IMG/VR virus record: IMGVR_UViG_3300042446_001138 | Span: 1 to 22,584 of that record | DNA: 22,584 nucleotides | DNA from: a virus | Reading direction: 5' to 3' (one strand) | Part shown: piece by piece, positions 3,999 through 22,584 of the stretch | How positions within the stretch are numbered: the stretch's first letter is position 1 | Layout: each line of letters starts with the position of its first letter | Made by a program: the position numbers and the translations under genes | The notes under the pieces: model-generated | Database searches by the model: none | Seen by the model: the letters and a program-made list of their open reading frames with translations, nothing else | Told to the model about the DNA's origin: nothing

Positions 3999-4280
3999 AT
4001 GCCAAAATTAAGTCGTAAAGGTGATAAAAATCAAACAGGTGGTGCCATAATACGTGGAGCCGGAACTGTTATTGCCAACGGCATTAATGTGGGATTGCAT
4101 GTTAGTACAATGACACCACATGCCCCATTTGGTCCTCCCCACCCCCCGCATGCAGCCGCAACAACTACCGAAGGTAGCCCTACAGTATTTGCTGAGGGAT
4201 CACCGGTATTAAGAGTAGGATCAGGAAATAGTTGTGGACATAGCATAGTTGAAGGCAGCCCTAACGTAGTTGTCCCATGA
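3999..4280 (+). CDS. PAAR-repeat tail-spike tip protein (93 aa)
   Basis: PAAR proteins form the metal-binding conical tip of contractile-tail spikes (T4 gp5.4 and type VI secretion tips). The length fits. The protein shows the Gly-rich repeat pattern, with recurring EGSP units (TEGSPTVF, AEGSPVLRV, VEGSPNVVV). Candidate metal ligands include His34, His41, His48, His51, Cys79 and His81. The start is one base after the preceding stop, and the stop overlaps the ATG of the large gene at 4277 (ATGA). The context suggests a virion baseplate or spike role and supports the myovirus interpretation. Confidence 0.9.
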   Translation: MPKLSRKGDKNQTGGAIIRGAGTVIANGINVGLHVSTMTPHAPFGPPHPPHAAATTTEGSPTVFAEGSPVLRVGSGNSCGHSIVEGSPNVVVP

Positions 4281-6310
4281 GTTATACCCCGTTAAAAATT
4301 AATGCAATGGGTTCTCTGTTGCAAGATGTAGGTCTATATATAAATCCTAATGCACAGTCGTACATGGGTACCAGTACGTCAGTTACTAATTATACCCCGG
4401 GCACAATAATAGATACTACAGTACTATCCACTATTACTAACGCTATGAATGTAGCATTCCCGTTGATTAACGCAGGCATCACTCAGGGTGAGTATAACAA
4501 TCTTATAAGCATAGGTTCTACTACAATACCTGCACTAGGTAACGCTAAACCTAGCGCATATATTAATGCATATACTGGGCAGAATACTCGTCACGGATTC
4601 TTACGACTAATTGCATGGCAAGCACATAAAGACTTTTACATCAACAACGGTAGTTACAGTGATTTTTTAGCAACATTTAATGCAATGCACGGTAGAAAAA
4701 CTCAGATGAATGAGACTATTAAAGCATTGAACAATTCATTAACATTTTTAGATGGCATCTATAGTAACATGAATGACTTGATTACTGCTGATATAGCCGG
4801 TATCAATCTAAGTACATTCTATTGGGGACAAGATTTAATTGCTGTGGGCAAAGCAATAGATTTGAAATATATCTCAACGTTTGGTAATCCAGATGACTTG
4901 TTAAGAACACTGTACAAGAATGGTGCAATCACACAGTCTATTAATTTAGGTTTGCTAAGTGCCGGAATGACTTCTAACGATATTAATAATATATTCAATG
5001 GCACACCCGCAACACCAGAGCAACAAAAATATATATATGCTACATTTTGTTTGATTATTAATGATGACTTGACTGATGTATTGACTCCGTTAAATTGTCA
5101 AACTACAGGACTAATGATGTTAGCAGATTTATTAGACCCTAAGAAGTTGTTTCCAAATAGTTATCAATCATTAACTACCCCGGTATTCAATGGGACACCC
5201 TTACCAACTAATAGCAAAACATACTATTTGATTTATAAAAATGGTACAATAGATGCGGTACCGGGATTGAATATAGGTGAAAGATTACAAAACATTATAC
5301 CACCTGAACTATCATATTCATGCGATGCATTTAGTAGAGCCATGATGCAGGTTCGCAATATTCAAAATATGGATATAGAGAAATTCAGTCAGGTTGTATT
5401 CAATTTGGAAAACGTTAACGGTTTGGGTGTAGGTGGAACGAATATCCCGACTAACACAGAGTTAGCAAATGTTGCTATAAATGCAGTGGCAAAAGGATCC
5501 GGCACTAACGGATTATATACAATGTGCGACTTCTTTGGAAGCATGACGGATATACACTATGATTGGGCTGAGTTACAAACACAGATTAGAGCATTGCAGT
5601 CTACTAATTTGTTTGCTATTTACAATAATATCAATAGCTTGTTGGGTGGGTTTGGACCATATGGTTCATTGCAAACATTGATTGATTCTGCTAATGCTGA
5701 AATATATAGTATAATGATTGCTAATCCTACCCTAGCTACTAAGTTGAACTCATTGTATAGTAGCTTTGGTGAGTATATAGCAAAAGAAGAAAACGCTAGA
5801 TTATTAGCATTGAGTACAATTGATGACCTAACAAGTACTACTAGTGATACAATAAACTTTATTGATAGTTTATCTCAATACGCCACAGAGACAGAAATTA
5901 AAGAATCTGCATTAGTTATAGAAAATATATCTGATACAGCAACTGTAGGAGGAAACAGTATAATAGCGTCTATGCGTGAAGCACGGAATGCAAAGCGATT
6001 AGGTCTTACTGGAGCAGAATTAGATAATGATGTGAATCTTACATCTGATTTAGTATTACCGAGAGTAACCGGAGAAACATTAGGAAATTCTCCAATTGAA
6101 GGTTACAATAACTGTAGCAATTTAAGCAATGTACCTATCATAACAGGCGCGGCTACAGTCCCGGGAAGTCTAGCAGGATCTTCCCAAACAACGTTGATAC
6201 CAGATAACCTTAGTATTCTTATTGAACCAGGTTGTGCTACGGTATTGACACCAACCGAAGCAATTGCTGATGTAGTATTGTGCAATTGTGACTGTTGGGA
6301 AAACTTATGA
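4277..6310 (+). CDS. Large unknown protein coupled to PAAR, probable virion/baseplate component (677 aa)
   Basis: I do not recognise the family. The sequence is rich in Asn, Thr, Ser, Ile and Leu, like many phage structural proteins. It has no signal peptide and no evident catalytic motif, and I see no lysozyme or peptidase signature. A helical, charged region lies around residues 500-580 (YIAKEENARLLALSTIDD). The C-terminus is low in charge and ends with three alternating cysteines, Cys669, Cys671 and Cys673 (LCNCDCWENL), which could bind metal or form disulfides. The start at 4277 overlaps the PAAR stop by ATGA, indicating coupled production. Virion assignment rests on this coupling and on composition. 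It could instead be a baseplate hub or tail-associated protein, or a secreted effector. Confidence 0.8.
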   Translation: MSYTPLKINAMGSLLQDVGLYINPNAQSYMGTSTSVTNYTPGTIIDTTVLSTITNAMNVAFPLINAGITQGEYNNLISIGSTTIPALGNAKPSAYINAYTGQNTRHGFLRLIAWQAHKDFYINNGSYSDFLATFNAMHGRKTQMNETIKALNNSLTFLDGIYSNMNDLITADIAGINLSTFYWGQDLIAVGKAIDLKYISTFGNPDDLLRTLYKNGAITQSINLGLLSAGMTSNDINNIFNGTPATPEQQKYIYATFCLIINDDLTDVLTPLNCQTTGLMMLADLLDPKKLFPNSYQSLTTPVFNGTPLPTNSKTYYLIYKNGTIDAVPGLNIGERLQNIIPPELSYSCDAFSRAMMQVRNIQNMDIEKFSQVVFNLENVNGLGVGGTNIPTNTELANVAINAVAKGSGTNGLYTMCDFFGSMTDIHYDWAELQTQIRALQSTNLFAIYNNINSLLGGFGPYGSLQTLIDSANAEIYSIMIANPTLATKLNSLYSSFGEYIAKEENARLLALSTIDDLTSTTSDTINFIDSLSQYATETEIKESALVIENISDTATVGGNSIIASMREARNAKRLGLTGAELDNDVNLTSDLVLPRVTGETLGNSPIEGYNNCSNLSNVPIITGAATVPGSLAGSSQTTLIPDNLSILIEPGCATVLTPTEAIADVVLCNCDCWENL

Positions 6311-6356
6311 TTAGTTAACAACTATCATAGTGCTGTTACTGGATAACATCCGGTAG

Positions 6357-6362
6357 AAAGGA
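6357..6362 (+). promoter_or_regulatory. Shine-Dalgarno site of the SleB-like gene
   Basis: AAAGGA sits four bases before the ATG at 6367 in a 56-base gap that has no other clear signal. It fixes the start upstream of the hydrophobic N-terminal segment. Confidence 0.6.
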
Positions 6363-6366
6363 ATAT

Positions 6367-6900
6367 ATGAAGCACACCTTTTTCAGTTTCTTTAGAGTAT
6401 ATCTATTTGTACCTCTAATAATATTAAGTTTGTTTGTATCTACAAACAATACTAATTCAACTTTATTTGAAAAAATCTATAAGAAAGTAGATTTGGTTCA
6501 AGTCAAGTGTCTAGCAACTAACATTTTTCATGAGGCAAATAAAGAGCCAATACTAGGACAAGCCGCAGTCGCACGTGTAGTAGTTAATCGTGTCAATCAT
6601 GGGTTTGCAAGCACCCCGTGTAAAGTTATTCATCAAGTTACTTATGTAGATAAGGGCTTAGATGAAAAGGTTAAAGTATGTCAATTTAGTTGGGTTTGTG
6701 AAGGCAAAGGTAAAGTGAATGAGCAAGACCCAAAATATCAACGTGCATTTCAAATTGCGTATGAAGTATTGGCATTAGACAAATACAAAGAAGTTGTACC
6801 TAAAACTACTTTATTCTTTCATAACTTAACCGTTGACCCGTTATGGCCTTATAAACAGGTTAAACAAATTGGTAATCATATTTTTTATAGCAAGAAGTAA
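6367..6900 (+). CDS. SleB-like cell-wall hydrolase with N-terminal membrane/signal segment (177 aa)
   Basis: This is a likely endolysin of the Hydrolase_2 (SleB) family, whose members cleave peptidoglycan glycan strands. The family core is at residues 48-75. NIFHEANKEP carries the candidate catalytic Glu56, and it is followed by the typical GQAAVARVVVNRV. The conserved later elements are CQFSWVCEGK and LFFHN. The N-terminus (residues 5-25) is a hydrophobic segment without a clear cleavage site. It could be a signal peptide, an anchor, or a signal-arrest-release sequence that allows lysis without a classical holin. A Shine-Dalgarno precedes the ATG. It lies between the structural genes and the methyltransferase pair and appears to start its own transcript or follow by readthrough. 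Confidence 0.92.
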   Translation: MKHTFFSFFRVYLFVPLIILSLFVSTNNTNSTLFEKIYKKVDLVQVKCLATNIFHEANKEPILGQAAVARVVVNRVNHGFASTPCKVIHQVTYVDKGLDEKVKVCQFSWVCEGKGKVNEQDPKYQRAFQIAYEVLALDKYKEVVPKTTLFFHNLTVDPLWPYKQVKQIGNHIFYSKK

Positions 6901-8600: not shown

Positions 8601-9146
8601 CTAAGATGTCCATCTAGGATATCTATTTAATTGCTCTAAAAATACATTAGGATTAAGTTTCCAAAAGGTCTGAGTGTGACCTCTGTATTCTCTTTCAAAT
8701 GATCTAGACAATACATTAGTTTTTTCTAATGACGGAGCATATATATTATGCACTAATTTTTGTGTCCCTACATCGCTAGGATGGGTAGTAATATACATAT
8801 CACCCTTATCGTTTGCCCACTCAATACATTTAGGAATAAAGAATTGTGCTGTAACATGTTGATGACTGATAATTTGATTTCGAGTGCGTAATGTATTTGT
8901 GGGTAGTAGATGAGTTAATACACAGGTTCTAGCACAGATTCTTACACCTTCATCTATTGTGTGTGCCGCTACGCTACCCACAGCAATATTATTATAGTAT
9001 AAAATCCAAACACCCCAACTAGCTTCATTTCGAAAACAATCAATCATTGCTGCCTGCGATGAATTATTCACAAAACCTTTATGCGCCGCATCAGCATAAA
9101 ATTCTGATAAGTTTAAATCTGCGGTCCATGGTATTATAGTATACAT
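8601..9146 (-). CDS. Possible GNAT-like N-acyltransferase (181 aa)
   Basis: The function is uncertain. The layout is compatible with a GNAT fold: an N-terminal helical region, then the strands WGVWILYYNNIAVGSVAAH (about residues 44-62), a second strand (VRICARTCVL), a long helix (HVTAQFFIPKCIEWANDKG), and a strand (MYITTH) leading to the C-terminal region. I cannot see a clear acetyl-CoA pyrophosphate loop of the Q/RxxGxG type, so the assignment is tentative. The start at 9146 overlaps the end of the kinase-like gene upstream by 13 bases. It is the last gene of a three-gene minus-strand unit with a 2OG-oxygenase-like and a kinase-like protein, so it may act in the same modification pathway. 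Confidence 0.75.
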   Translation of the reverse strand: MYTIIPWTADLNLSEFYADAAHKGFVNNSSQAAMIDCFRNEASWGVWILYYNNIAVGSVAAHTIDEGVRICARTCVLTHLLPTNTLRTRNQIISHQHVTAQFFIPKCIEWANDKGDMYITTHPSDVGTQKLVHNIYAPSLEKTNVLSRSFEREYRGHTQTFWKLNPNVFLEQLNRYPRWTS

Positions 9147-9826
9147 TTTACTTTTTCAATGAATTCTATTGGATAGTTTGTACTAAAGCTAGACCAACAT
9201 AATTTATCCATTATTTGCCAAGACTGAGGGGCATCCCATTCTATTCCTAAGGTCTGTATATGTTTACGCATCTCATCCTGTCTAGTTGAGTAGATATGAC
9301 TCTCAACATCTTTTATACTGATATTTGGCTCATCTTTGTGATACGTAAAGAAATAGTTAATACTCTTTAATTTACCATTGACAACAAAATAACTACTAGG
9401 ATGCATACTGTATTTGTGCCATCCGTGTGATTTATGTGCTTTGATTATATCCAACATTTGATCTTGCCAATCAGGTACTACATTATCAAAGTTATTATGA
9501 TCACACCCTGCGCATTCCCAGAAATCTGGACCATCGATTCGTAGATAAATTTTACGTTCCGGTACATTTACTTCTAATATCTCTGGGACTAAATCGGGAA
9601 AATGATATGCCATATTGTGTAAGAAATGCATTTCCCTATGCCATTTTTCATCTATTTTTTTAGGGTCAACTACTTGATTTTGTCCTTTGTGATATTCCGT
9701 ATCGTTATAATACCACTGGCAGAATGTTTTCTTATCTTTACTTATTAAACTTGTATATATTAAATTGTTTCGGCACAGCCCTATATTTGGGACATTGTTA
9801 TAGTAATAAACAAAATTGTCGGTCAT
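9134..9826 (-). CDS. Kinase-fold-like protein, copy A, lacking catalytic residues (230 aa)
   Basis: I infer a protein-kinase/aminoglycoside-phosphotransferase-like fold. WHREMHFLHNM resembles the alphaC helix with its Glu. VPEILEVN and RKIYLRIDG resemble the strands leading to the hinge. WQDQMLDIIKAHKSHGWHKYSMHP resembles the helix entering the catalytic loop, followed by FVVNGKLKSINY where a kinase would have its metal-binding Asp. The catalytic-loop Asp is absent (KYSMHPSS) and the DFG-like position is Asn, so it looks like a pseudokinase or a divergent ligand-binding protein. It shares this layout and the MTD start with the gene at 20885-21580. It lies three bases after the 2OG-oxygenase-like gene and overlaps the possible GNAT gene. 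Confidence 0.85.
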   Translation of the reverse strand: MTDNFVYYYNNVPNIGLCRNNLIYTSLISKDKKTFCQWYYNDTEYHKGQNQVVDPKKIDEKWHREMHFLHNMAYHFPDLVPEILEVNVPERKIYLRIDGPDFWECAGCDHNNFDNVVPDWQDQMLDIIKAHKSHGWHKYSMHPSSYFVVNGKLKSINYFFTYHKDEPNISIKDVESHIYSTRQDEMRKHIQTLGIEWDAPQSWQIMDKLCWSSFSTNYPIEFIEKVKCIL

Positions 9827-9829
9827 ATT

Positions 9830-10432
9830 TTACTTATATATTTCTATAATTTTATTAGTGAATGCAAGATAATCTATCTCACCAAATATTCTCATTGTGA
9901 TCCTAGTCCCTTCAGAACGTGGTACTCGGTGCTTAATTGAATCATTCAATAACATTGCATTACCAAAAACTTTTACATACTCACCTGATTCATCACTCCA
10001 TATTTCACACCAAGTATTACCTGTGCTAGGAATTAAACTGAGTCCCAGAGTATGCGCTTTATCTCCCCTATCGTCCCAATCAGTATGTTCAACACAAGGG
10101 ACATCGGGGAAATAAACTACTCGTATCGCCCCTAAAATATTAAAAGGAAGTGATTCTATTACATGTCTTGTGTATGGAATATTTAATTTATAATCCCACC
10201 CCCATTCAGACTCATTTGCTTGTTTAGCTCCACGATAACTATAATCGATAAATGTTGGATTTACTCTTAGAAATAAACTATAAGCAGTTACTTTATCTAT
10301 ATCACCCCTATTAGGGGGATAAGAGAAGGGGAAACACTTATCACTATCTTGAACAGCCAGTAGTTCTGAAGTCATTTTTTCATAATCTATATCTAAGTTA
10401 AGACTTGCGGCAATAATATCATTAAAATCCAT
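9830..10432 (-). CDS. 2OG/Fe(II)-dependent oxygenase-like protein (200 aa)
   Basis: This is a DSBH protein with the iron-binding facial triad expected of 2-oxoglutarate oxygenases. From the ATG at 10432 the triad is His116-x-Asp118 (VEHTDWDD) and His168 (SIKHRVP). Arg177 or Arg181 (GTRITMRIFG) is suited to bind 2-oxoglutarate. The core resembles aspartyl/asparaginyl-hydroxylase-like and small phage 2OG oxygenases, but the substrate is unknown. An in-frame GTG at 10450 could start a protein six residues longer. I prefer the ATG because a late-promoter-like octamer lies between the two. It leads a minus-strand operon with a kinase-like and a possible GNAT gene and diverges from the TauD/ANL unit. 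Confidence 0.88.
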   Translation of the reverse strand: MDFNDIIAASLNLDIDYEKMTSELLAVQDSDKCFPFSYPPNRGDIDKVTAYSLFLRVNPTFIDYSYRGAKQANESEWGWDYKLNIPYTRHVIESLPFNILGAIRVVYFPDVPCVEHTDWDDRGDKAHTLGLSLIPSTGNTWCEIWSDESGEYVKVFGNAMLLNDSIKHRVPRSEGTRITMRIFGEIDYLAFTNKIIEIYK

Positions 10433-10437
10433 AAAAA

Positions 10438-10445
10438 TATTTATC
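10438..10445 (-). promoter_or_regulatory. Candidate late-type promoter for the minus-strand oxygenase operon
   Basis: Read on the minus strand the octamer is GATAAATA, one mismatch from the T4-like late element TATAAATA. It ends five bases before the ATG at 10432, so any leader would be very short. It lies in the 43-base divergent gap. Confidence 0.4.
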
Positions 10446-10459
10446 GGCACTGTATGCCA

Positions 10460-13572: not shown

Positions 13573-14431
13573 GTTAATAAATGAGTGGGCACCTGTTATA
13601 ACCGATATCGATTTATCGGTTTCTACTCAAGAGGATATTAATACTATTTCTAAATTAATAGCTACCTATTCTCTAGTAGTAATAAAAAAACAAAAATTAT
13701 CATTGTCTGATGAACTACGAGTAGTGAATATGTTTAAAGATATAGGATCTTTTTTAGAAGAAACCGACGAGCAATTAAAATTACTAAAAGTTTCCGGAAC
13801 AAACGGAAAATTACTACGAGTTGGTGGGAAAAAGAATGAATACGGTTCTCCGGGAATATCTAGCCACCCGGAAGAAATGGATTGGCACTTAGATTTTCAT
13901 TGGGCTATGAATTCAAATAATGTTGCATTAATATGGTTACACGGTGTTGAGGGAGTTGAAGGATCTAGAACTTCATGGTTGAACAGCATAAACGCATATG
14001 AAGATTTAGATAAAGACCTTAAGGATTTATTAAAAGATACTACCGCAACTATGGCTAGGTATGTTCAATTTAATGTAAAAAACTTCATTGAAGATGAGAA
14101 TCAAAATAGATGGGCTCCTGGTGAAGAATTCAAAGGGTATCAGCGAAATGTGATTGATGTTAGTCCTGCAGGTAAAAAACATTTATTTTTCCCTTTCTAT
14201 AACATGCATCATTTAAATGATCTATCCAAAGAAGAAAGTAAACCTATCTTTTTACAATTAGCAAAACATATGACACAAGAAAAGTATTGCTATCATCATG
14301 ATTGGGAATTAGGTGACATAGTTATTTCTGATAATCGTTTAGGGTTACATAAACGATGGGCATTTGATAAAATAGAAGATAGATTGTTGCATAGAGCAAT
14401 GTTCGATTACCCAAATGACTTAGAATTTTAA
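13562..14431 (+). CDS. TauD/TfdA-like 2OG/Fe(II) oxygenase, copy 3 (289 aa)
   Basis: This is the third TauD-like paralog, with an intact site: His109-x-Asp111 (DWHLDF), distal His in LGLHKRW and Arg in LLHRAMF. I start it at ATG 13562, giving MNYKLINEW, because it matches the MKYxxxxxGW starts of copies 1 and 2. The open frame upstream to a TTG at 13502 lies inside copy 2. It overlaps copy 2 by 11 bases. The region around residues 165-190 (FIEDENQNRWAPGEEF) differs most from the paralogs and may shape the substrate pocket. It ends the four-gene unit, directly abutting the 3' end of the minus-strand tRNA-like gene. Confidence 0.93.
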   Translation: MNYKLINEWAPVITDIDLSVSTQEDINTISKLIATYSLVVIKKQKLSLSDELRVVNMFKDIGSFLEETDEQLKLLKVSGTNGKLLRVGGKKNEYGSPGISSHPEEMDWHLDFHWAMNSNNVALIWLHGVEGVEGSRTSWLNSINAYEDLDKDLKDLLKDTTATMARYVQFNVKNFIEDENQNRWAPGEEFKGYQRNVIDVSPAGKKHLFFPFYNMHHLNDLSKEESKPIFLQLAKHMTQEKYCYHHDWELGDIVISDNRLGLHKRWAFDKIEDRLLHRAMFDYPNDLEF

Positions 14432-14505
14432 TGGAGCGGCCGGGGGACTCGAACCTCCGTCTCTAGTTTGGACAACTAGCGTAAAACCTCTCTACTACAA
14501 GCCGC
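14432..14505 (-). tRNA. Irregular tRNA-like gene, anticodon by position UCC (Gly)
   Basis: On the minus strand 74 bases fold as a cloverleaf. The acceptor is GCGGCT with GGCCGC, followed by T and an encoded CCA. The D stem is GTAG with TTAC, the anticodon stem CTAGT with ACTAG around loop TGTCCAA, and the T arm GGAGG-TTCGAGT-CCCCC. The T arm and CCA are convincing. The oddities are a six-pair acceptor stem, a single base between acceptor and D stem, an A-C mismatch in the T stem, and G instead of the near-universal U at position 33. By position the anticodon is UCC (Gly), but the irregular loop makes identity uncertain. Its 5' part lies inside the 3' end of the adjacent CDS, whose stop codon falls in the anticodon stem. 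It may be functional, degenerate or a relic. Confidence 0.6.
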
Positions 14506-15354
14506 AGGAATTAAATCCAGTAGTTTTTTGAACATAATATCATTACCCTCAGGAGTTTTGACTGACACTTTAAAGGGTTTCCCTCCGTGAAAAGTGGCAA
14601 GCTCCTTATCCACTATTCCTGACGTAAATTTAAACCATGGGGGATACCAACCATCTTTACCTAAACAATGTATTACTGGGATTTGTTTAGAAGTTAAATA
14701 TTGATCTATTTGTAGTAATGCACCATAATATCGATTTAGTTGCAAGTCAGGATGATACAAGTATTTTTTATGTAGCATTAACGCATCAATTAATTCTTTA
14801 AAAAATATGTTTTCATCAACATATGATTTGACTAAATTCATTAACGATTCTTGTGGGTTTTCTTTTATTAAGGTATCAGAATCTAATTTTATGTTTTGTT
14901 CTTTTGCAATTGAGTTTAGCACTGCAATTACTGGAGCATTCTCGGTACTTGCTATTCTATTGATTTCGAATAATATTTCATCATCAGTAAACTGTACCCC
15001 TTTAGTATTACACCAGTTTTCTATTAGGTCTATTATTTCGGGGTGCTTTTTTATTTCTTCTAATGTAGCACCCTTCATCAAATTAAATTTTTCTACAAGA
15101 TATTCACGTCCAGCTGTGGTCGCATCTCTATGCCATGATGGAATAAAACATACTGTAGGATCAGCATGGAATATGATTGCTATATCTATTTTTTTGATTT
15201 TTTTTAATTGGAGAAGAATTCTTTCCTCTGAACACATAGCGCATCCCGAATTTACTATATTAGCATTAAAATGATCTTGTAATTTAGTTATAAATGACCA
15301 TGGCTCTTTGTGCTCCCAATTGGCAATGCTATGACCAAAAATACCTATATTCAT
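14476..15354 (-). CDS. Possible SGNH-hydrolase-like protein, 3' end overlapping a tRNA-like gene (292 aa)
   Basis: The family is uncertain. The N-terminus MNIGIFGHSIANWE resembles the first strand and block I of SGNH/GDSL hydrolases (usually GDS, here GHS with Ser9). It is followed by NSGCAMCSEE, which sits where an Asn/Gly block could be, and the core strand IDIAIIFHADP. A long helical insert (about residues 75-185) is present, and the end has YHPD and FHGG motifs. Such enzymes are esterases or acyl hydrolases, and some act on glycans. The start is well supported by AGGAAA five bases upstream and by the promoter-like octamer at 15372-15379. The last ten codons and the TAG stop lie inside the tRNA-like gene, so the C-terminus (AACSREVLR) may be fused or acquired. 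Confidence 0.8.
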   Translation of the reverse strand: MNIGIFGHSIANWEHKEPWSFITKLQDHFNANIVNSGCAMCSEERILLQLKKIKKIDIAIIFHADPTVCFIPSWHRDATTAGREYLVEKFNLMKGATLEEIKKHPEIIDLIENWCNTKGVQFTDDEILFEINRIASTENAPVIAVLNSIAKEQNIKLDSDTLIKENPQESLMNLVKSYVDENIFFKELIDALMLHKKYLYHPDLQLNRYYGALLQIDQYLTSKQIPVIHCLGKDGWYPPWFKFTSGIVDKELATFHGGKPFKVSVKTPEGNDIMFKKLLDLIPAACSREVLR

Positions 15355-15371: not shown

Positions 15372-15379
15372 TATTTATT
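15372..15379 (-). promoter_or_regulatory. Candidate late-type promoter, minus arm of a divergent palindrome
   Basis: On the minus strand this reads AATAAATA, one mismatch from TATAAATA. It forms a perfect palindrome with 15381-15388 around the G at 15380. The SGNH-like start codon lies 17 bases downstream, leaving room for its Shine-Dalgarno. Confidence 0.55.
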
Positions 15380-15380
15380 G

Positions 15381-15388
15381 AATAAATA
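15381..15388 (+). promoter_or_regulatory. Candidate late-type promoter, plus arm of a divergent palindrome
   Basis: AATAAATA followed by CTC is one mismatch from the T4-like late octamer and lies 19 bases before the ATG at 15408. It is the only promoter-like signal upstream of the five-gene operon ending at 19325. Confidence 0.55.
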
Positions 15389-15407
15389 CTCAAAGAAAAA
15401 TAATCTT

Positions 15408-16454
15408 ATGACAGATACCTATTCGTTGTGTGAACATTGCTATAGACATATACCGGCAAATAGATTTATCCGTGATGGGGCGGTGTACTTGGGCAAAACA
15501 TGCATAAAACATGGATATCACGAATGCTTAGTAGAAATTGATAGCGAGTTTTATCTTAGTCAGGATTATGAAAGACGCAATCCACGTAGTTATTGGTTAG
15601 ATATAACTAATAGATGTAATTTAGATTGTCCTCATTGTTATCAGATGCCAGAGAATACTAGTATTGATCCTGCAATTGATTACTTACTATTTCAAATCAG
15701 CAAGTGGCCAGATAATGGGTTTGCAATAAGTTTAGTAGGAGCAGAACCGACAACACGCAAAGATTTACCTGATTTAATTCGTGCAATCCAGGCGTTGCCA
15801 GGACAGCCTAGATTAATAATGATTGTGACTAATGGTATTAATTTAGGTAAAGAAGATTATGCTAAGAAATTTGTGGGTATACCAAATCTGATTTGGACCA
15901 TTGGACTTAATCATCCTGAGTATAATGGTGGTGTAATACGTAAAAAACAAGAAGAAGGTATTAAGAATTGTATTAGACTAGGATTAACTATTAAGAACTT
16001 TACATATACATTGGGTGATCTAAATCAACTACCCTATGTATTAGAAGAAGTTCAAGAATGGAATCGTAAAGGCATTTGTGATAATGCACGTATTCAAGTT
16101 GGGGTCGATATAGGAAGAACTCCGGAAGAACATGAAGCTGAATTATATCTAAGTGATTTAGTTAAAGCTACTAAGCAAGAAACATTGAATAAAAATTGGT
16201 CATGGGAGCCAAGTACAGAAGGTAATCGCACACATTATGCAGTCTATATCAACGGGGTACTACATAGATTAATTAAATGGGTAGATGTTAAAACTATTGA
16301 TTTTAGTGAAGTGTTTAGCGAATCGTTAGCAGAACTTGTACCCGGTAAACCAATGAGTACATTGCTTCATCAAGTTATATTACGTGATAGAGTTATTAAT
16401 GAAAAGCAACCGTTATTTGATACATTACCATTAGAATATAGACAGTATGATTAA
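15408..16454 (+). CDS. Radical SAM protein with N-terminal Cys domain (Tes/COG1964-like), copy 1 (348 aa)
   Basis: This is a radical SAM enzyme. The [4Fe-4S] triad Cys70, Cys74, Cys77 is in CNLDCPHC. A GGEP-like SAM motif reads GAEPTTRKDLPDL from residue 111. The N-terminus has Cys8, Cys11, Cys32 and His35 (CEHCYRH ... GKTCIKHG), matching the small metal-binding domain seen in the group that includes archaeal tetraether lipid synthase and MJ0619-type pterin methylases. Unlike those longer enzymes, it has no visible C-terminal cysteine cluster, so a full auxiliary cluster set is unlikely. I start at ATG 15408; an upstream TTG at 15378 lies over the promoter-like palindrome. The next gene is a paralog overlapping by eight bases. 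The substrate is unknown. Confidence 0.93.
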   Translation: MTDTYSLCEHCYRHIPANRFIRDGAVYLGKTCIKHGYHECLVEIDSEFYLSQDYERRNPRSYWLDITNRCNLDCPHCYQMPENTSIDPAIDYLLFQISKWPDNGFAISLVGAEPTTRKDLPDLIRAIQALPGQPRLIMIVTNGINLGKEDYAKKFVGIPNLIWTIGLNHPEYNGGVIRKKQEEGIKNCIRLGLTIKNFTYTLGDLNQLPYVLEEVQEWNRKGICDNARIQVGVDIGRTPEEHEAELYLSDLVKATKQETLNKNWSWEPSTEGNRTHYAVYINGVLHRLIKWVDVKTIDFSEVFSESLAELVPGKPMSTLLHQVILRDRVINEKQPLFDTLPLEYRQYD

Positions 16455-17511
16455 ATTAGAAGATACATTGGGAATATGTGAGCATTGTTATAGACATGTT
16501 CCTGCAAAAAGATTTATACGTGCAGGCGGCGTATATTTAGGAAAGACTTGTCCAGTGCACGGCTACGTAGAGCATTTAGTTGAACCTGATGTTGATTTTT
16601 ATACTGGATATGAGTATACAAGAAGGGCATTGGAGAGTTATTTTCTAGAAATTACTAACCATTGTAATTTAGCTTGTCCACACTGTTATCAAGAACCTAA
16701 TAATACAACGGCAGACCCGTCAATAGATTATATCTTATCATTGATTGATAGTTGGCCTGACGATGGATACTCAGTTGCTTTAGTAGGTGCTGAACCAACT
16801 ACACGTAAGGATCTACCTGACCTGATTCGTGCTATAAACAATATGAATAAAAAACATAGAAACGTGATGATATTAACTAACGGTGTATATCTAAGTAACT
16901 ATGAATATGCAAAACGATTTACTGAATTTGATTATCTACAATGGACTGTGGGATTGAATCATCCTGAATATCAAGGACATACTGTACGTAGGAAACAAAT
17001 GGAAGGTATTAAAAATTGTACTGATTTAAAACTACCAATTAAAAATGTTAGTTATACACTAGAGACATTGGATCAACTAGAGTATTGTTTAGACGAAATA
17101 CAAGAGTTTGGTGATAGTATTTGTAGTCAATATCGAATTCGGTGTGGTGCGGATATCGGACGATATCCGGGCAGCCCCAAGATATACATGAGTCAGTTAG
17201 TAAATGAAGTAAAATCTATCTCACATACCAAAGGATGGTCTTTCAGCCACAATAATGGAGCTGGTAATCGTAGTCATTATGCAGCCATTATTAATAATTT
17301 ACCAGTTAAGATTATTCAATGGCCCGATGTAAAAACAATTGATTTAGGTGAAGTTCAAACTGAAGCTATTGCTGACATATTACCAGGCAAACCACCAAGT
17401 CCTCTAGTGCATCAAGTTATACTACGTGATGCTATGATTAATAAAAAGATGATGTTATTTGATACTATCCCTAAAGAATATATAGAGAATTATGGCCATA
17501 TTAGGAATTAA
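16447..17511 (+). CDS. Radical SAM protein with N-terminal Cys domain (Tes/COG1964-like), copy 2 (354 aa)
   Basis: This is a tandem paralog of the previous radical SAM protein. The [4Fe-4S] cysteines are Cys73, Cys77 and Cys80 (CNLACPHC), and the GAEPTTRKDLPDLIRAI motif is nearly identical to copy 1. The N-terminal domain has Cys11, Cys14, Cys35 and His38. The C-terminal half is also shared (LPGKP, LHQ/VHQVILRD, LFDT), so both copies keep a family-specific tail. Differences cluster around residues 230-260 (ICSQYRIRCGADIGRYPG), which may set specificity. Two such paralogs side by side suggest a heteromer or two successive steps on one substrate. Its end overlaps the next oxygenase-like gene by 20 bases. 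Confidence 0.93.
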   Translation: MIKLEDTLGICEHCYRHVPAKRFIRAGGVYLGKTCPVHGYVEHLVEPDVDFYTGYEYTRRALESYFLEITNHCNLACPHCYQEPNNTTADPSIDYILSLIDSWPDDGYSVALVGAEPTTRKDLPDLIRAINNMNKKHRNVMILTNGVYLSNYEYAKRFTEFDYLQWTVGLNHPEYQGHTVRRKQMEGIKNCTDLKLPIKNVSYTLETLDQLEYCLDEIQEFGDSICSQYRIRCGADIGRYPGSPKIYMSQLVNEVKSISHTKGWSFSHNNGAGNRSHYAAIINNLPVKIIQWPDVKTIDLGEVQTEAIADILPGKPPSPLVHQVILRDAMINKKMMLFDTIPKEYIENYGHIRN

Positions 17512-18298
17512 TAATAATCCGTACTTTGATATGGAATCATACTTAGATATGTTAGAGTTTGACAGACTACAGCCTGAAATTATACGCGGGTTTGCTGAAG
17601 CACGTGAGTTTGCAAAAGAAGGCACATGGATGAAGCCTGGCTTTACTTTTGAGCAAATGAGTTATAAACATAACTGGAAGCCCATCTATCAAGCAATGGA
17701 TGAGTTCATGGAACTACCCAAAGATGATCCTATATATATGGGTGGAATAGATTTATTTAAAGACTTTAATAACTATAAACAACGTAATAAATTTACTCGC
17801 TATCTTAAAATGGTTATGGGCGCATATGATCCTTATATCTATTATTTCTTATGGGAGGAAGGGTCATGGGATGATCGTACTGCACCACGTAAATTAACAG
17901 AAGAAGCACAGTATTTCCCAGGCACTGTTAAATGGGTTGAAGATATGATTGCAAATAATATCTTTGAACACATAGGTCGTGTTATATTCTTTCACTGTGA
18001 AGCAGACGGGATACCCTTTGAGCATAGAGATTTAGATGCTAAGAACGGAATTAATAATCATGGTCCGCATCGTAACGAATTCATACATATACGTCCTAAT
18101 ACTAAAAAAGCCTTTTACATATGGGATCCTGAACTTAAGAACAAAATCTATTTAAATACAAGAGCCGCATGGTGGAATGACAACGACTGGCACGGTGGAG
18201 AAAAGATAATGGAACAGAGTTATAGCTTACGCATTGATGGTAAGTTTACTGATGATTTCAGAAAGAAACTAGGAATTGATCATTTGGAGACTTATTAA
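17492..18298 (+). CDS. 2OG/Fe(II)-oxygenase-like protein (268 aa)
   Basis: The N-terminal two thirds are helical and unfamiliar. The C-terminal part has a DSBH pattern: His-x-Asp in FEHRDLDA (about residues 177-180), a strand IHIRPNTKKAFYIW, and the distal His in NDWHGG, then SYSLRIDG where an Arg could bind 2-oxoglutarate. This supports an Fe(II)/2OG oxygenase-like role, though the spacing is not the standard one for the small paralogs downstream. The ATG at 17492 lies within the end of the radical SAM gene (20-base overlap); a second possible start is the ATG at 17531. Its stop overlaps the next ATG (TAATG). It probably works with the radical SAM pair. Confidence 0.85.
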   Translation: MAILGINNNPYFDMESYLDMLEFDRLQPEIIRGFAEAREFAKEGTWMKPGFTFEQMSYKHNWKPIYQAMDEFMELPKDDPIYMGGIDLFKDFNNYKQRNKFTRYLKMVMGAYDPYIYYFLWEEGSWDDRTAPRKLTEEAQYFPGTVKWVEDMIANNIFEHIGRVIFFHCEADGIPFEHRDLDAKNGINNHGPHRNEFIHIRPNTKKAFYIWDPELKNKIYLNTRAAWWNDNDWHGGEKIMEQSYSLRIDGKFTDDFRKKLGIDHLETY

Positions 18299-18798
18299 TG
18301 ATTTACATAGGAAACTATTCACATTGGATAAAAGATGAATGGATAGAATATCTATGCAATAACAACGGGACTCTTAGACCAAAAACTGCTAACGAGAACC
18401 CAGATAGTCAAGAGTTTAGAATAGCTACTGCTGCCGGGTATGATTTATCTAAAACATATTGGCATCATTATACTAACACTAATAATACTTTTCCTTTGCA
18501 GTTAGAACTTCCCTTTGCCAATAATCATTCTCATATATGGTGGTTTATTAAAATGACTCCTGGACAGTTCATGCCCATGCATAAAGATCCGCACGCCGTT
18601 GAAGAACAAGATGTTAAACGATATTGGATGGCCCTACAAGATTATGAAGAAGGTCATATACATATTAACAATAGACATTTTTTATCTGATTATAAAAAGG
18701 GAGATTTATGGATGTATGATGACCCTATGTCTATACACGGTGCTTGTAATATCGGATATTCTCCTAGACTAGTTTTCAACTTTAGTACATACAAATAG
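18298..18798 (+). CDS. Small 2OG/Fe(II)-oxygenase-like protein, paralog 1 (166 aa)
   Basis: This is a compact DSBH protein with the full oxygenase triad: His95-x-Asp97 (MPMHKDPH), distal His147 (PMSIHGA) and Arg157 (YSPRLVFN), ten residues after the distal His, as expected for 2OG binding. The core also has GHIHINNRHFLSDYKKGDLW. The N-terminus (MIYIGNYSHWI) is shared with the next gene, and the two align throughout. The gene starts at a TAATG overlap with the previous gene. Such minimal oxygenases are common in marine T4-like phages, where their function is mostly unknown. The substrate here is unknown, but the operon suggests joint action with the radical SAM proteins. Confidence 0.92.
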   Translation: MIYIGNYSHWIKDEWIEYLCNNNGTLRPKTANENPDSQEFRIATAAGYDLSKTYWHHYTNTNNTFPLQLELPFANNHSHIWWFIKMTPGQFMPMHKDPHAVEEQDVKRYWMALQDYEEGHIHINNRHFLSDYKKGDLWMYDDPMSIHGACNIGYSPRLVFNFSTYK

Positions 18799-18800
18799 CT

Positions 18801-19325
18801 ATGAAATATATAGGAAACTACAAGTCTTGGATTGAAGAACAAGAGATTATGAAACACCTTACTAATTGTCAAGGTGATCGTACTCCGGTATGGCAACCTG
18901 ATCGTTGGAGCGGGAATCCAACATTAGAAAAATTTAAAGAAATGGCTCGTTCAGGCTACTCAAACAACAATTTTTTCTTTCACCAAATGAATCCAAAATC
19001 TGAAGAAATGCAGAATTTTAAATTTACATTACCAAAAACTCCTGATAATCGTAGTAAAGTAAATTGGTGGTTTGTAATGTTATATCCGGGCGAGTTTCAA
19101 GCTATGCACATAGATCCGCAATTGACTGAAGTTAAAAATTTTGTACGTTATACAATGTTTTTACAAAATTGGGAACCAGGGCATATATTTGTATGGGATG
19201 ACAAATACATATCTAATTATAAAGCCGGAGACATGTACGAATGGAATGATCCTATGACTGTACACGGCCCTGCTAATATAGGATATAATACACGGTATAC
19301 CTTACAGATTACAATGTACGATTGA
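18801..19325 (+). CDS. Small 2OG/Fe(II)-oxygenase-like protein, paralog 2 (174 aa)
   Basis: This is the paralog of the gene two bases upstream, sharing the N-terminal MxYIGNYxxWI and the C-terminal strand pattern. The triad is His103-x-Asp105 (AMHIDPQ) and His155 (TVHGPANIGYN), with Arg165 ten residues later for 2-oxoglutarate. It has the same GHIF...NYKAGDMYEW arrangement before the distal His. It is the last gene of the plus-strand operon beginning at 15408, and its final 17 bases overlap the 3' end of the convergent radical SAM gene. No membrane segment or extra domain is present. Confidence 0.92.
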   Translation: MKYIGNYKSWIEEQEIMKHLTNCQGDRTPVWQPDRWSGNPTLEKFKEMARSGYSNNNFFFHQMNPKSEEMQNFKFTLPKTPDNRSKVNWWFVMLYPGEFQAMHIDPQLTEVKNFVRYTMFLQNWEPGHIFVWDDKYISNYKAGDMYEWNDPMTVHGPANIGYNTRYTLQITMYD

Positions 19326-20400
19326 GTTGCTCGCTGATTTTAATAAACGGACCGTTATTGCCGCAAAGTATTTTACAAGTTGATGATGAGTTATCATCCC
19401 ATTTATGGCGGATTAATTTTTGCCAAACATCAGTTCTCATAATATTTTTAATAGAATGTTTTTTTGAGTCTAATGCATCCAGTCCGCCAAGTTCTTGAAT
19501 AATAGAAAAAACTTCTAGTTGAACTTCTCTAGCAATACTAGTAATACTAGTTTCATCTATAATACCGTACTTACGATACAGTTCAACATCGTAATTAGCA
19601 TACAAAAAAGACCCTATTAAACAGCACGGCATTAGATAACCGTTAGCATCTATATAAAGTTCTTTAGAGTCAACCGCAAAACAACTGATATCAGTTTTCC
19701 ATTCTTTATAATTTTTTAAATCTAAGAACTCTACTGGTTTAATATCACTGTTGATAGGAGGTTCTATATAGTAATTGATAGCCCCTTTTCTATCAAGTAC
19801 TGGAAATTTTTTACCAAATCTTTTACTATCTTTTGTAGAAAATTTTGAAAATCCTAGTTTAGATGATATGTTTCTTGCCTCATCCACTTGATGCTCATTA
19901 TGTTTAAACCTTATAAAAATCCATTCTGCATTGCCGCCGCCGTCTATAAAGGCTTTAGCATTTTTTATGATGGTATTATAGTTAGTTCCAATTCGATAAA
20001 GACTATGAGTATCCACTAGTCCGTCTAAAGCAAATACTACTCTATGGTTCTTTGGTAATGCAACAGCTAAAGATTTCCACCATTGCGTAGTTTGTGCCGA
20101 ACCATTCGTATTAATCACAATTTCTAAACTAGATTTTTTTGCACTGATATATCGGCACATTTCTAATAAATCAGAGTTGATAATAGGATCACCGTAATCG
20201 CCACAGAAATTAATGCAAGATACTTGATTTAAAACTTCGTCAGTAAACGTATTCTGAAACCTCTCTAGTGTCCAATCTGTTAAAACTAAGTTAGGGTTAT
20301 CAATTCCGCTGTGTATGTTTCTAAGACACATGGGACAACTAGCTTGACACCGATTAGTGATTTCAATTTGTACAGTATGCAGTAGTTCAAAGGAAAACAT
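19309..20400 (-). CDS. Radical SAM protein with SPASM-like C-terminal cysteines (363 aa)
   Basis: The [4Fe-4S] triad is Cys18, Cys22, Cys25 (CQASCPMC) near the start, preceded by the usual strand HTVQIEITN. A glycine-rich motif INFCGDYGDPI takes the GGEP position. The C-terminal third holds more cysteines: SCFAVDSKELYIDANGYLMPCC and, near the end, TCKILCG. This pattern resembles SPASM or twitch domains that carry auxiliary iron-sulfur clusters in peptide- or small-molecule-modifying enzymes. It starts directly after the stop of the 2OG-oxygenase-like gene (TAAATG) and ends in a convergent overlap. It is probably the last gene of a four-gene unit entering from beyond the right edge. Confidence 0.92.
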   Translation of the reverse strand: MFSFELLHTVQIEITNRCQASCPMCLRNIHSGIDNPNLVLTDWTLERFQNTFTDEVLNQVSCINFCGDYGDPIINSDLLEMCRYISAKKSSLEIVINTNGSAQTTQWWKSLAVALPKNHRVVFALDGLVDTHSLYRIGTNYNTIIKNAKAFIDGGGNAEWIFIRFKHNEHQVDEARNISSKLGFSKFSTKDSKRFGKKFPVLDRKGAINYYIEPPINSDIKPVEFLDLKNYKEWKTDISCFAVDSKELYIDANGYLMPCCLIGSFLYANYDVELYRKYGIIDETSITSIAREVQLEVFSIIQELGGLDALDSKKHSIKNIMRTDVWQKLIRHKWDDNSSSTCKILCGNNGPFIKISEQLNRTL

Positions 20401-20892
20401 TTAATATCCTATAACATGAAACATATACTTGTTTGTTAGGCCACCATTGATTCCATTATGCCAGTCTTTGTGATTACCCCATTTAAGTATTGTGCCCTGA
20501 GGTTTATTGTAGAAATATTCTTTACCTAGTATAAACAAATGTCCAACCGTTGGTTCACTAATAAAAATAGAATAGCGTTTTAATAATCCATGTTTTAAAT
20601 ATTCTTGCTCGTTATCATCTATATCATAATGATAACCAGTCATGTAGCCAGGTTCTACACAACTAATCCAACTACGCAACACAATAACACCTACTTGCTT
20701 AGATATTTCTTTTTCAAGATCCGCAGTCTCATAATAGTTTGTCCACCTAACACCATCAGTGTTAAAGTTATTATCCTTCCATAACTTTAACATTTCTGCA
20801 TATTCTGGATTGTTTATGTTCCAACGTGCAGAATCAACAGTAACAACCTTACCGTTTACCAAGTTACTGATAACTGTATTCCAATTAATCAT
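20401..20892 (-). CDS. 2OG/Fe(II)-oxygenase-like protein, Lys at the usual 2OG-Arg position (163 aa)
   Basis: This DSBH protein has an intact metal triad: His88-x-Asp90 (GYHYDID) and His145 (DWHNG). The residue ten positions after the distal His, Arg in the paralogs at 18298 and 18801, is Lys155 (TNKYMFHVIGY). It could still hold 2-oxoglutarate or reflect another co-substrate. SIFISEPTVGHLFILGKEYF forms the central strands. I chose ATG 20892 rather than the upstream TTG at 20919 because it is an ATG that overlaps the end of the previous gene by eight bases, like other junctions here. It lies between a kinase-like gene and a radical SAM gene. Confidence 0.88.
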   Translation of the reverse strand: MINWNTVISNLVNGKVVTVDSARWNINNPEYAEMLKLWKDNNFNTDGVRWTNYYETADLEKEISKQVGVIVLRSWISCVEPGYMTGYHYDIDDNEQEYLKHGLLKRYSIFISEPTVGHLFILGKEYFYNKPQGTILKWGNHKDWHNGINGGLTNKYMFHVIGY

Positions 20893-21580
20893 TATAGACT
20901 TCTTCGAATATGTCAGCAAACACAGTATTACCCCAACCTTTTCCTTGTAGATGTTTTGTTACAGTAATTTCAAAAAACTTTTTAAAATCAATAAAACCTT
21001 TTTCATCAGTTGATTGATCAAAACGATAGGAACCGTCCTTGCCTATAATACCTTCAATTATTTTTCTTTCTATAAATCTTTCTTCATAGGGAATAACAGC
21101 ATAGTGGTCTATAGTTTTTAGTTGACCGTCTTTTGAAATAAAGAAACAATTTGGGTACAGTGATGTTTTCCAGAAGTTATTTGCCTTTGTGGAAATAAAA
21201 AAGTCTTTCATCTGTTTCTTCCAAGTCGGAACTTCTGTGTCTAAGTCTCTACCCGGAGTATACAACACTTGCGATAATGTTTCTTTGTTCCATTCCATAA
21301 AGATTTTTCTATGGTTATAGTCTACATCATAAAGTATCGGAGTAGTTGTGAGATGCGATAATTGTTTTAAAAATTTAGCATCTCTGTTAAAAAACCATTC
21401 TATTAAATCTTCTGCTACTATTACTGTTTCTTCAGGTCTGTAATCTGCGTCAATACAATAGTGAGCACACATTATTGTTTGCTCTGGATTAATTCTAGGA
21501 GTGTATAATAAATTTGACGGATATCTATCTCCGTTGGGATTTAGCTTATGATAATATCCCCAACTGCTTATATCTGTCAT
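20885..21580 (-). CDS. Kinase-fold-like protein, copy B, lacking catalytic Asp (231 aa)
   Basis: This is a distant paralog of the protein at 9134-9826. Shared features are the MTD start, a SNLLYT/NNLIYT segment near residue 25, an alphaC-like helix (RDAKFLKQLS), a hinge-like strand (RKIFMEW), the W-x-x-QM helix and a catalytic-loop-like region (KTSLYPNCFFI). DGQLKTIDHYA follows, where the Asp could match the DFG Asp. The catalytic loop lacks the expected HxD, so it may bind nucleotide or metabolite without phosphorylating, or be a pseudokinase. The kinase fold is inferred from this layout only. ATGA overlap with the upstream radical SAM gene and overlap with the next oxygenase indicate one coupled operon. 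Confidence 0.85.
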   Translation of the reverse strand: MTDISSWGYYHKLNPNGDRYPSNLLYTPRINPEQTIMCAHYCIDADYRPEETVIVAEDLIEWFFNRDAKFLKQLSHLTTTPILYDVDYNHRKIFMEWNKETLSQVLYTPGRDLDTEVPTWKKQMKDFFISTKANNFWKTSLYPNCFFISKDGQLKTIDHYAVIPYEERFIERKIIEGIIGKDGSYRFDQSTDEKGFIDFKKFFEITVTKHLQGKGWGNTVFADIFEEVYND

Positions 21581-22584
21581 AGTTTACTCCAACTTAGTTT
21601 TTTATTAATATAACTTTGCACCTGATCTTTAAACTTTTGATCTGCTGAGTTTATATCTGATACTTTGTAGTCGTAAATATGTTCGTATACATTGGTTTCA
21701 TAATATGCAAACAGTCTATCCGATAAGAATGGATTACAACCTTTACGTCCAATAAAACCACCGGTCCTAGAATAAAATTCCTGCACTAAAGATTCTGCTT
21801 GGTACCAATCCATAGTATGATGTTTCCAAATAACAATGTCATTTCTAGTACTTCCAACGCCACCGCCTCGGGGTGTCGTAGATTTAAATACTACGTGACC
21901 GCTACTATCTTTAAAAACTTCGTAGCCTGGATTTTGTCTAGCTTCTAATTTAATTAATCCGTTACTTACTAGTTCTTTAGTAAACTTACTTTGATTAGTT
22001 AGTGATTCATCGTAATCAGGAACTTCAAGTATATGTGCGCTAGCACTTTGTCTAACCCATTTGGTGTTCAACCATTCTAATGAATTGTTCCAAGACTCTA
22101 CGCTTTCGCCGGGTATTCCACAAATCATCTGTATATTTGCTCTATAACGTCTATGTGCATGAATATCCGTATATGCTTGGAAGTCTAATAAGCCTTCTCG
22201 CAACTTATCAGGATCCATACCCTTGCGTACAAGTTTACCAGCTTCATGATTAAACGTTTCAATGCCCATGCTGTGTCCAAGGAAGCCTAATCTAATGTAA
22301 GTATCCCAATATGCCTTGTGTTTAACAACCAAGTCTCCGCGGGCAAATCCGCATATCCAGGGGTTGTAATTTAGTTCGTCTACCGCGTCAGCATACTTTT
22401 GTAATTTTTCAGGACGGTCGTTAAATGTCTCGTCCATAACACGCCAATTTTTAATGCCCCACTTTTCAAACCCAGTTTGCATTTGAAGTTTAAATTGTTC
22501 TTTACTAACACTAACGTCCTTAGCTTGTCCTATGATAGGAAAGTTACAGTAAGAGCAACTGAACATACAACCACGTGCTGTTTC
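21577..22584 (-). CDS. Radical SAM protein, 5' end beyond the window
   Basis: The reading frame is open through the right edge. The first visible residues are ETARGCMFSCSYC, containing the CxxxCxxC radical SAM cluster motif in the ARGCxFxCxxC form typical of B12-binding radical SAM enzymes (BchE-like class). An N-terminal cobalamin domain may therefore lie outside the window. Downstream motifs include MDETF (about 40 residues after the cysteines), GHSMGIETFN and MICGIPGESVESW, which match strands of the radical SAM barrel. The C-terminal part (from about residue 200 of the visible sequence) is specific and unrecognised. The stop overlaps the kinase-like start (ATGA). The substrate is unknown; if a cobalamin domain is present, methylation of an unreactive carbon would be likely. 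Confidence 0.92.
   Translation of the reverse strand, partial: ETARGCMFSCSYCNFPIIGQAKDVSVSKEQFKLQMQTGFEKWGIKNWRVMDETFNDRPEKLQKYADAVDELNYNPWICGFARGDLVVKHKAYWDTYIRLGFLGHSMGIETFNHEAGKLVRKGMDPDKLREGLLDFQAYTDIHAHRRYRANIQMICGIPGESVESWNNSLEWLNTKWVRQSASAHILEVPDYDESLTNQSKFTKELVSNGLIKLEARQNPGYEVFKDSSGHVVFKSTTPRGGGVGSTRNDIVIWKHHTMDWYQAESLVQEFYSRTGGFIGRKGCNPFLSDRLFAYYETNVYEHIYDYKVSDINSADQKFKDQVQSYINKKLSWSKL

Follow-up and report, generated by a model that had tools for sequence, protein, structure and literature searches.

Oxygenase, pseudokinase and radical SAM genes form a modular cluster in the tail region of T4-like phages

The window analysed here is the entire IMG/VR virus record IMGVR_UViG_3300042446_001138 (22,584 bp), whose end carries a tightly packed set of minus-strand genes for two radical S-adenosylmethionine (SAM) enzymes, a double-stranded beta-helix (DSBH) oxygenase and a pseudokinase. 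These genes belong to a five-gene operon, J-K-L-M-N, which lies in a modular cluster of uncultured T4-like phages, apparently from lakes and the ocean, and may serve a multi-step modification of C-H bonds. T4-like phages have been known since 2010 to carry radical SAM clusters, with the product left unnamed (PMC2853527; PMC7029224). The present analysis describes an oxygenase-pseudokinase core, usually with two pseudokinases per record, that occurs on many virus contigs and did not turn up in the cellular genomes sampled. No paper in the collection searched joins radical SAM enzymes, pseudokinases and phages.

The J-K-L-M-N operon

Four genes of the operon lie in the window, the record end falling inside the first of them.

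21577..22584, minus strand: K, radical SAM enzyme with a B12-binding-type N-terminal domain, cut by the record end (PF04055 43.6 bits)
20885..21580, minus strand: L, pseudokinase, a protein kinase fold without the catalytic Asp (AlphaFold2 model, family alignment)
20401..20892, minus strand: M, Fe(II)/2-oxoglutarate (2OG)-type DSBH oxygenase (HxD...H invariant; an upstream TTG at 20919 is a possible alternative start)
19309..20400, minus strand: N, SPASM-like radical SAM enzyme (PF04055 26.4 bits; SPASM PF13186 22.7 bits)

The junctions were read directly from the sequence. K and L share an ATGA, L and M overlap by 8 bases (the ATG of M is at 20892 and the stop of L at 20885-20887), and M and N abut in TAAATG, so that the four linked genes are present exactly as the original prediction described them. 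A second contig, IMGVR_UViG_3300042863_000526 (45.5 kb; L002), shares 4,747 identical bases with the end of the window, extends the region upstream and completes the operon to five genes. The added gene, J, overlaps K by 4 bases and diverges from I, which encodes a QueC-like PP-loop protein; the operon is therefore J-K-L-M-N. The upstream part that had been expected beyond the window thus consists of a further DSBH hydroxylase, J, and the N-terminal B12-type domain of K.

Genes were called over 168 fetched loci, and adjacency was counted over 78 distinct contig groups. K is followed by L in 28 of these groups, L by M in 41 and J by K in 33; when the longest open reading frame (ORF) starts are used, the gaps have medians of -13, -35 and -4 bases, respectively. 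This repeated adjacency, together with the tight overlaps, makes the linkage of K, L, M and J non-random, and the radical SAM gene keeps its neighbours in relatives instead of standing there unlinked. A promoter scan of the sequences performed no better than shuffles and a terminator scan little better, and no fusions among the cluster families were found in ORFs longer than 450 codons.

The wider cluster and its constant unit

The operon is one arm of a repeated block of about 20 genes. Genes A, B, N, C and D run on one strand and meet F, H and I on the opposite strand; the block continues divergently with J, K, L and M (N), which meet O, W, z2 and z1, followed by the second pseudokinase gene, kin2, and a GNAT-like gene. 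The radical SAM genes of the block are A, C, D, F, H, K, N, z1 and z2, with C and H clearly of the twitch type (NF033640, 399 and 320 bits), and each of seven longer phage records contains 9-15 PF04055 matches. The window itself accounts for two pseudokinases, four radical SAM genes and eight 2OG-type oxygenases, of which seven are supported and one is recognized by motif only. Its cluster genes outside the operon are the following.

18801..19325, plus strand: O, DSBH oxygenase converging on N (H103, D105, H155 and R165 invariant in 18 relatives)
18298..18798, plus strand: O2, Asp/Arg hydroxylase-like DSBH oxygenase (PF05118 22.3 bits, cut-off 22.6)
17492..18298, plus strand: W, DSBH oxygenase that accompanies kin2 most constantly (H178, D180, H234 and R247 invariant in 16 relatives)
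16447..17511, plus strand: z2, radical SAM enzyme with an HMPTM-type N-terminal zinc ribbon (PF23545 47.8 bits, PF04055 48.7 bits)
15378..16454, plus strand: z1, radical SAM enzyme with an HMPTM-type N-terminal zinc ribbon (PF23545 49.6 bits, PF04055 40.5 bits)
10476-11276, 12706-13572 and 13502-14431, plus strand: three TauD-type dioxygenases (PF02668 66.7, 91.1 and 110 bits)
11273-12709, plus strand: AMP-binding (adenylation-type) enzyme between the TauD genes (PF00501 33.2 bits; no solved relative at E 0.001)
9830..10450, minus strand: DSBH-like protein (HTD...H motif by eye only; no Pfam match)
9134..9826, minus strand: kin2, the second pseudokinase, conserved alongside W (A1 profile 280 bits; 26% identical to L, E 5e-17)
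8601..9146, minus strand: GNAT-like protein paired with kin2 (assigned by visual inspection; no match in Pfam or PHROG)

These families reappear in rearranged order across kin2 contigs, some of them of marine origin as read from the metagenome numbers. Constancy was scored with family profiles at 44 distinct kin2 loci, each 12 kb or longer, retrieved by way of the second pseudokinase. W is present at 43 of these loci, O-type oxygenases at 34, M-type oxygenases at 33 and a second pseudokinase at 30; K occurs within 6 kb at only 12. In the window's lineage K stands between J and L, and in others it lies elsewhere, beside N-type genes. Because W is nearly universal at these loci and K is found at so few, the unit that is constant across the phages is oxygenase plus pseudokinase. 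The original prediction of a linked set of radical SAM, oxygenase and kinase-like genes was right about the linkage, while the B12-type radical SAM gene proved optional and mobile. By the profile searches, the oxygenase-pseudokinase core appears to belong to no annotated family.

The adjacency of kin2 to the GNAT-like gene was observed in 23 contig groups. After the GNAT-like gene there is also a conserved protein of about 480 residues (L003:18571-20019 and relatives, 474-497 residues), with no Pfam or PHROG match.

Pseudokinases L and kin2

The AlphaFold2 model of L, built with 42 relatives, has a mean predicted local distance difference test (pLDDT) score of 94.3 and a bilobal protein kinase fold, with residues 1-230 aligned (Foldseek; VIA-align Z up to 14.3), although no kinase family model in the libraries searched matched L in sequence. 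L resembles protein kinases and pseudokinases in fold over its whole length but lacks both the HRD Asp and the VAIK-type Lys, and has a Lys in place of the catalytic-loop His. The HRD Asp is absent from all 297 family members, and the Lys that replaces the HRD His is kept in all 295 members covering that position. In the motif alignment, whose residue numbers run one below those of the protein because the start Met was omitted, HRDLKPEN corresponds to K-x-S/A-L-Y-P-H/N-C in L and to K-Y-S-M-H-P-S-S in kin2, with Cys or Ser in the position of the catalytic-loop Asn. L retains the DFG Asp, which is replaced by Asn in kin2 (Asp in 157 and Asn in 132 of the 297 members), and no VAIK-type Lys is conserved. 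The kinase fold and the uniform loss of the HRD Asp bear out the earlier assignment of the kinase-like gene as a pseudokinase.

Nei-Gojobori estimates for L gave dN of about 0.03-0.22 against dS of about 0.7-2.4 (dN/dS about 0.04-0.1), indicating that L is under purifying selection despite having no kinase catalytic residues. The pseudokinase profile matched all eight virus records, with two copies in six, three in G007 and one in the partial record G001. The A1 pseudokinase profile found nothing in 398 Pseudomonadota genomes, and a tblastn search of 50,697 phage genomes with the pseudokinases gave no match. L and kin2 belong to a large viral pseudokinase family named by no library searched.

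Oxygenases

The HxD...H iron triad is kept by every aligned relative of M, O, J and W; in M it consists of H97, D99 and H154, invariant in 32 relatives, even though M has no Pfam match above cut-off. These four proteins are assigned from their motifs as Fe(II)/2OG-type oxygenases, with 2OG turnover predicted. Searches of solved structures returned nothing useful for M, O, W, I or the AMP-binding enzyme, and the J, W and O proteins had no match in the 50,697 phage genomes.

J is a DSBH hydroxylase with an iron-binding jelly-roll core, and its profile matches Cpz10 (62 bits, 6e-16), its sole informative solved relative; the likeness to cis-4-proline hydroxylase is weak (E 0.014). Cpz10 acts in caprazamycin biosynthesis, where it adds a hydroxyl group to the beta carbon of an aminobutanoyl-glycyluridine (PMC9814697). 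Both proteins have the jelly-roll core, and J alone has an extra C-terminal part. The likeness of J to Cpz10 and, weakly, to cis-4-proline hydroxylase points to an amino-acid-type substrate, and is the main pointer and sole sequence lead to one.

Radical SAM enzymes K and N

Full-length K, as encoded in the overlapping contig (L002:9461-11008), has 515 residues and scores 43.5 bits against PF04055. Its CxxxCxxC motif (C186, C190 and C193) is invariant in 29 of 29 relatives. K matches the PhpK P-methyltransferase model TIGR04479 with 62.4 bits, far under the curated cut-off of 600, and falls far below other NCBIfam cut-offs too. The AlphaFold2 model of K (pLDDT 85.7) could be aligned over most of its length with TsrM (Z 19.3), OxsB (19.2), AprD4 (18.7), MgmA (18.6) and CysS (18.1), and K is accordingly modelled with the two-domain fold of B12-type radical SAM enzymes. 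It shares this fold and the CxxxCxxC motif with TsrM, OxsB, CysS, TokK and MgmA at 12-16% identity, and cobalamin binding is predicted. A B12 domain had been suggested beyond the window end; in its favour, the fold of K matches TsrM and OxsB over the full length, but the N-terminal third matched the B12-binding model PF02310 only weakly (E 0.017, below cut-off). No transporter, another suggested neighbour, was recognisable in the upstream 10 kb.

A search of genome contigs with the K profile found one relative, an orphan gene on a chromosome contig of a Pseudomonadales metagenome-assembled genome (L188:3495-5018, 540 bits to the K profile). It lies near mutY- and purE/purK-like genes, and the other cluster genes are absent there. 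A second B12-type radical SAM gene, a paralogue of K, occurs in the same phages (L169:6393-7910; L174:8508-10022), where its neighbours are 2OG oxygenases and SGNH-like genes.

N lies just under the PF04055 cut-off (29.5 bits) and above that of SPASM PF13186 (21.5 bits). Its CxxxCxxC motif is invariant in 23 of 23 relatives, as are nine cysteines in total, five of them C-terminal (C240, C259, C260, C342 and C346), compared with the seven of a full SPASM pattern.

Phage setting and comparison with known modules

Genes bordering the cluster, or lying outside it in the same phage records, are the following.

3999..6900, plus strand: PAAR-like protein, 677-residue protein and cell wall hydrolase bordering the cluster (PF07486 67.5 bits)
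G003:C1:162943-163353 and 190933-191445, G005:C1:26119-26454 and G006:C1:19717-20238: PTPS and GTP cyclohydrolase I genes

The same border of PAAR, 677-residue protein and hydrolase genes is present in L149, L198, L217, L221 and L223. Across the window and related contigs the neighbours include nrdA/nrdB, PAAR, baseplate wedge, virion protein, RIIA and RIIB genes, by which the carriers are identified as T4-like phages. The element is a phage tail-region cluster and not a bacterial operon. Three phage contigs also encode an IscU/NifU Fe-S scaffold (L149:6700-7104, E 6e-51; L269; L270), which directly adjoins the cluster in L149 and lies elsewhere on the cluster-bearing contig in the other two; none was found in the window or the overlapping contig. 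A phage Fe-S scaffold fits the demand of many Fe-S enzymes during infection.

The T4-related Campylobacter phages CP220 and CPt10 encode 11-12 radical SAM proteins per genome and have an interchangeable module (PMC2853527). That module includes five of these radical SAM genes and an amidinotransferase gene, with a PAAR gene nearby, and resembles the present cluster in phage type and richness in radical SAM genes. Three proteins of CP220 score 69-82 bits with the N family profile. In the CP220 stretch searched, relatives were found for neither the pseudokinases nor J, W, I, K or O, and amidinotransferase and sugar-transferase genes stand where this cluster has oxygenases. The host recognition cluster of pelagimyophages likewise carries radical SAM cassettes and lipopolysaccharide (LPS) genes (PMC7029224). 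In the Pelagibacter phage Mosig, genes for radical SAM enzymes, an Asp/Arg hydroxylase, TauD, a methylase and a carbamoyltransferase lie between the tail fibre genes and VrlC. Mosig has one relative of the N family (78 bits); the pseudokinases, J, W, I and K were not found in it, and it has aminotransferases, nitroreductases and a desaturase in their place. Radical-SAM-rich tail-region modules of T4-like phages are therefore already known, with no substrate assigned to them, whereas the oxygenase/pseudokinase core is absent from the isolated phages searched.

A proposed pathway and its alternatives

The reading we tentatively prefer, at somewhat less than even odds, is that the J-K-L-M-N operon, within its modular phage cluster, carries out multi-step C-H modification of an amino acid or of a small molecule or sugar bearing one, with the pseudokinases as scaffolds. 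The hydroxylases and radical SAM enzymes would attack unactivated C-H bonds of a single substrate one after another: J, M and W by hydroxylation, K by C-methylation or another B12-type radical step, and N by a second radical step. The pseudokinases would not phosphorylate; they may hold this substrate, or a ligand put to new use, and offer it to the oxygenases, or they may bridge the enzymes. The stepwise chemistry and the scaffold role are moderately likely, and the nature of the substrate is a guess. The original prediction had proposed a pathway for carbon-centred modification of a peptide, sugar or nucleotide; its chemistry agrees with the linked radical and oxygenase genes, and all three of its substrate classes are still candidates. 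The cluster lies beside PAAR, baseplate wedge and tail-region genes, as do the pelagimyophage host recognition cluster and the Mosig module, and because it sits in this tail and host-recognition part of the genome, the product could be a phage-specified decoration of the cell surface or the virion.

Several observations weigh against this proposal. Cobalamin binding by K is predicted only, with a Pfam B12 score below cut-off, and AprD4, whose fold is just as near to that of K, catalyses dehydration, not methylation. The alignment of J with Cpz10 covers about 98 residues, a likeness at family level only. K is missing from most kin2 loci, and the variation in gene order and content leaves a single linear pathway unproven. 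Neither a substrate nor a carrier protein, precursor peptide or transporter was identified, and the operon itself contains no glycosyltransferase. A further, rather improbable reading is a phage-specific pathway in which the kinase-fold protein, with its rebuilt catalytic loop (the invariant Lys, and Cys or Ser where the Asn would bind metal), serves the 2OG oxygenases and radical SAM enzymes as their dedicated partner, or even as an enzyme of a novel type, in making a modification unknown from cells.

Other targets are conceivable. The enzymes may instead modify a phage or host protein post-translationally, for example a host enzyme, tail fibre or spike, the pseudokinases serving as adaptors that bind proteins; this reading has perhaps one chance in a few. 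It would account for the SPASM-like and twitch radical SAM enzymes and the Asp/Arg-hydroxylase-like oxygenases, for MgmA, a protein glutamine C-methylase, being among the nearest folds to K, and for the adjoining tail genes; however, neither a candidate substrate protein nor a small precursor gene was found, and the protein closest to J in sequence has a small molecule as its substrate. A little less probable is a surface-glycan pathway that makes an unusual sugar or decorates LPS or a virion glycan. The flanks contain a carbamoyltransferase (PF02543, 98.5 bits), weak glycosyltransferase-2 matches and SGNH-like genes, the window has FkbM methyltransferase genes, the fold of K matches AprD4, which acts on aminoglycosides, and LPS genes occur in the pelagimyophage cluster (PMC7029224). 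Yet the core families include no recognisable glycosyltransferase or sugar-nucleotide enzyme, and J is related to amino-acid hydroxylases.

Hypermodification of the phage DNA, for example to 7-deazaguanine or a modified thymine, seems improbable. Gene I is QueC-like (PF06508 21.0 bits, cut-off 22; a weak phrog_1550 match), and PTPS (QueD-like) genes in three of the eight records and GTP cyclohydrolase I in one hint at 7-deazaguanine DNA modification elsewhere in these genomes. These genes lie outside the block, though, and were not found in the other records, which are fragments; the radical SAM genes of the operon do not match QueE, and no member of the operon is known to act on DNA. A cluster for a ribosomally synthesized and post-translationally modified peptide, with its own precursor, is very improbable and was already weakened by the gene spacing. 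SPASM-like and B12-type radical SAM domains occur together in the cluster, and the combination of such enzymes with hydroxylases resembles the logic of proteusin pathways. Nevertheless, the precursor peptide envisaged at first has no room: neither the window nor the cluster stretch of the overlapping contig has a gap above 45 bp or a conserved small ORF, all such gaps amount to 4,787 of 2.09 million cluster bases (0.23%), and recurrent small ORFs in them reach two other loci at most. A role in defence was considered and rejected, as its only hints were radical SAM similarities of a generic kind, to viperins and to one candidate family.

The genes J, L, M, W, kin2, I, H and F make up a small testable set for finding what these phages make.

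Other observations

A weak tRNA-like match lies at 14436-14504 of the window, on the minus strand (Rfam 29.9 bits, threshold 29; none by ARAGORN), and overlaps the end of the gene at 14476-15354. A cluster-bearing phage contig also encodes an RNA-binding protein (L170:2-862; phrog_850, 285 bits).

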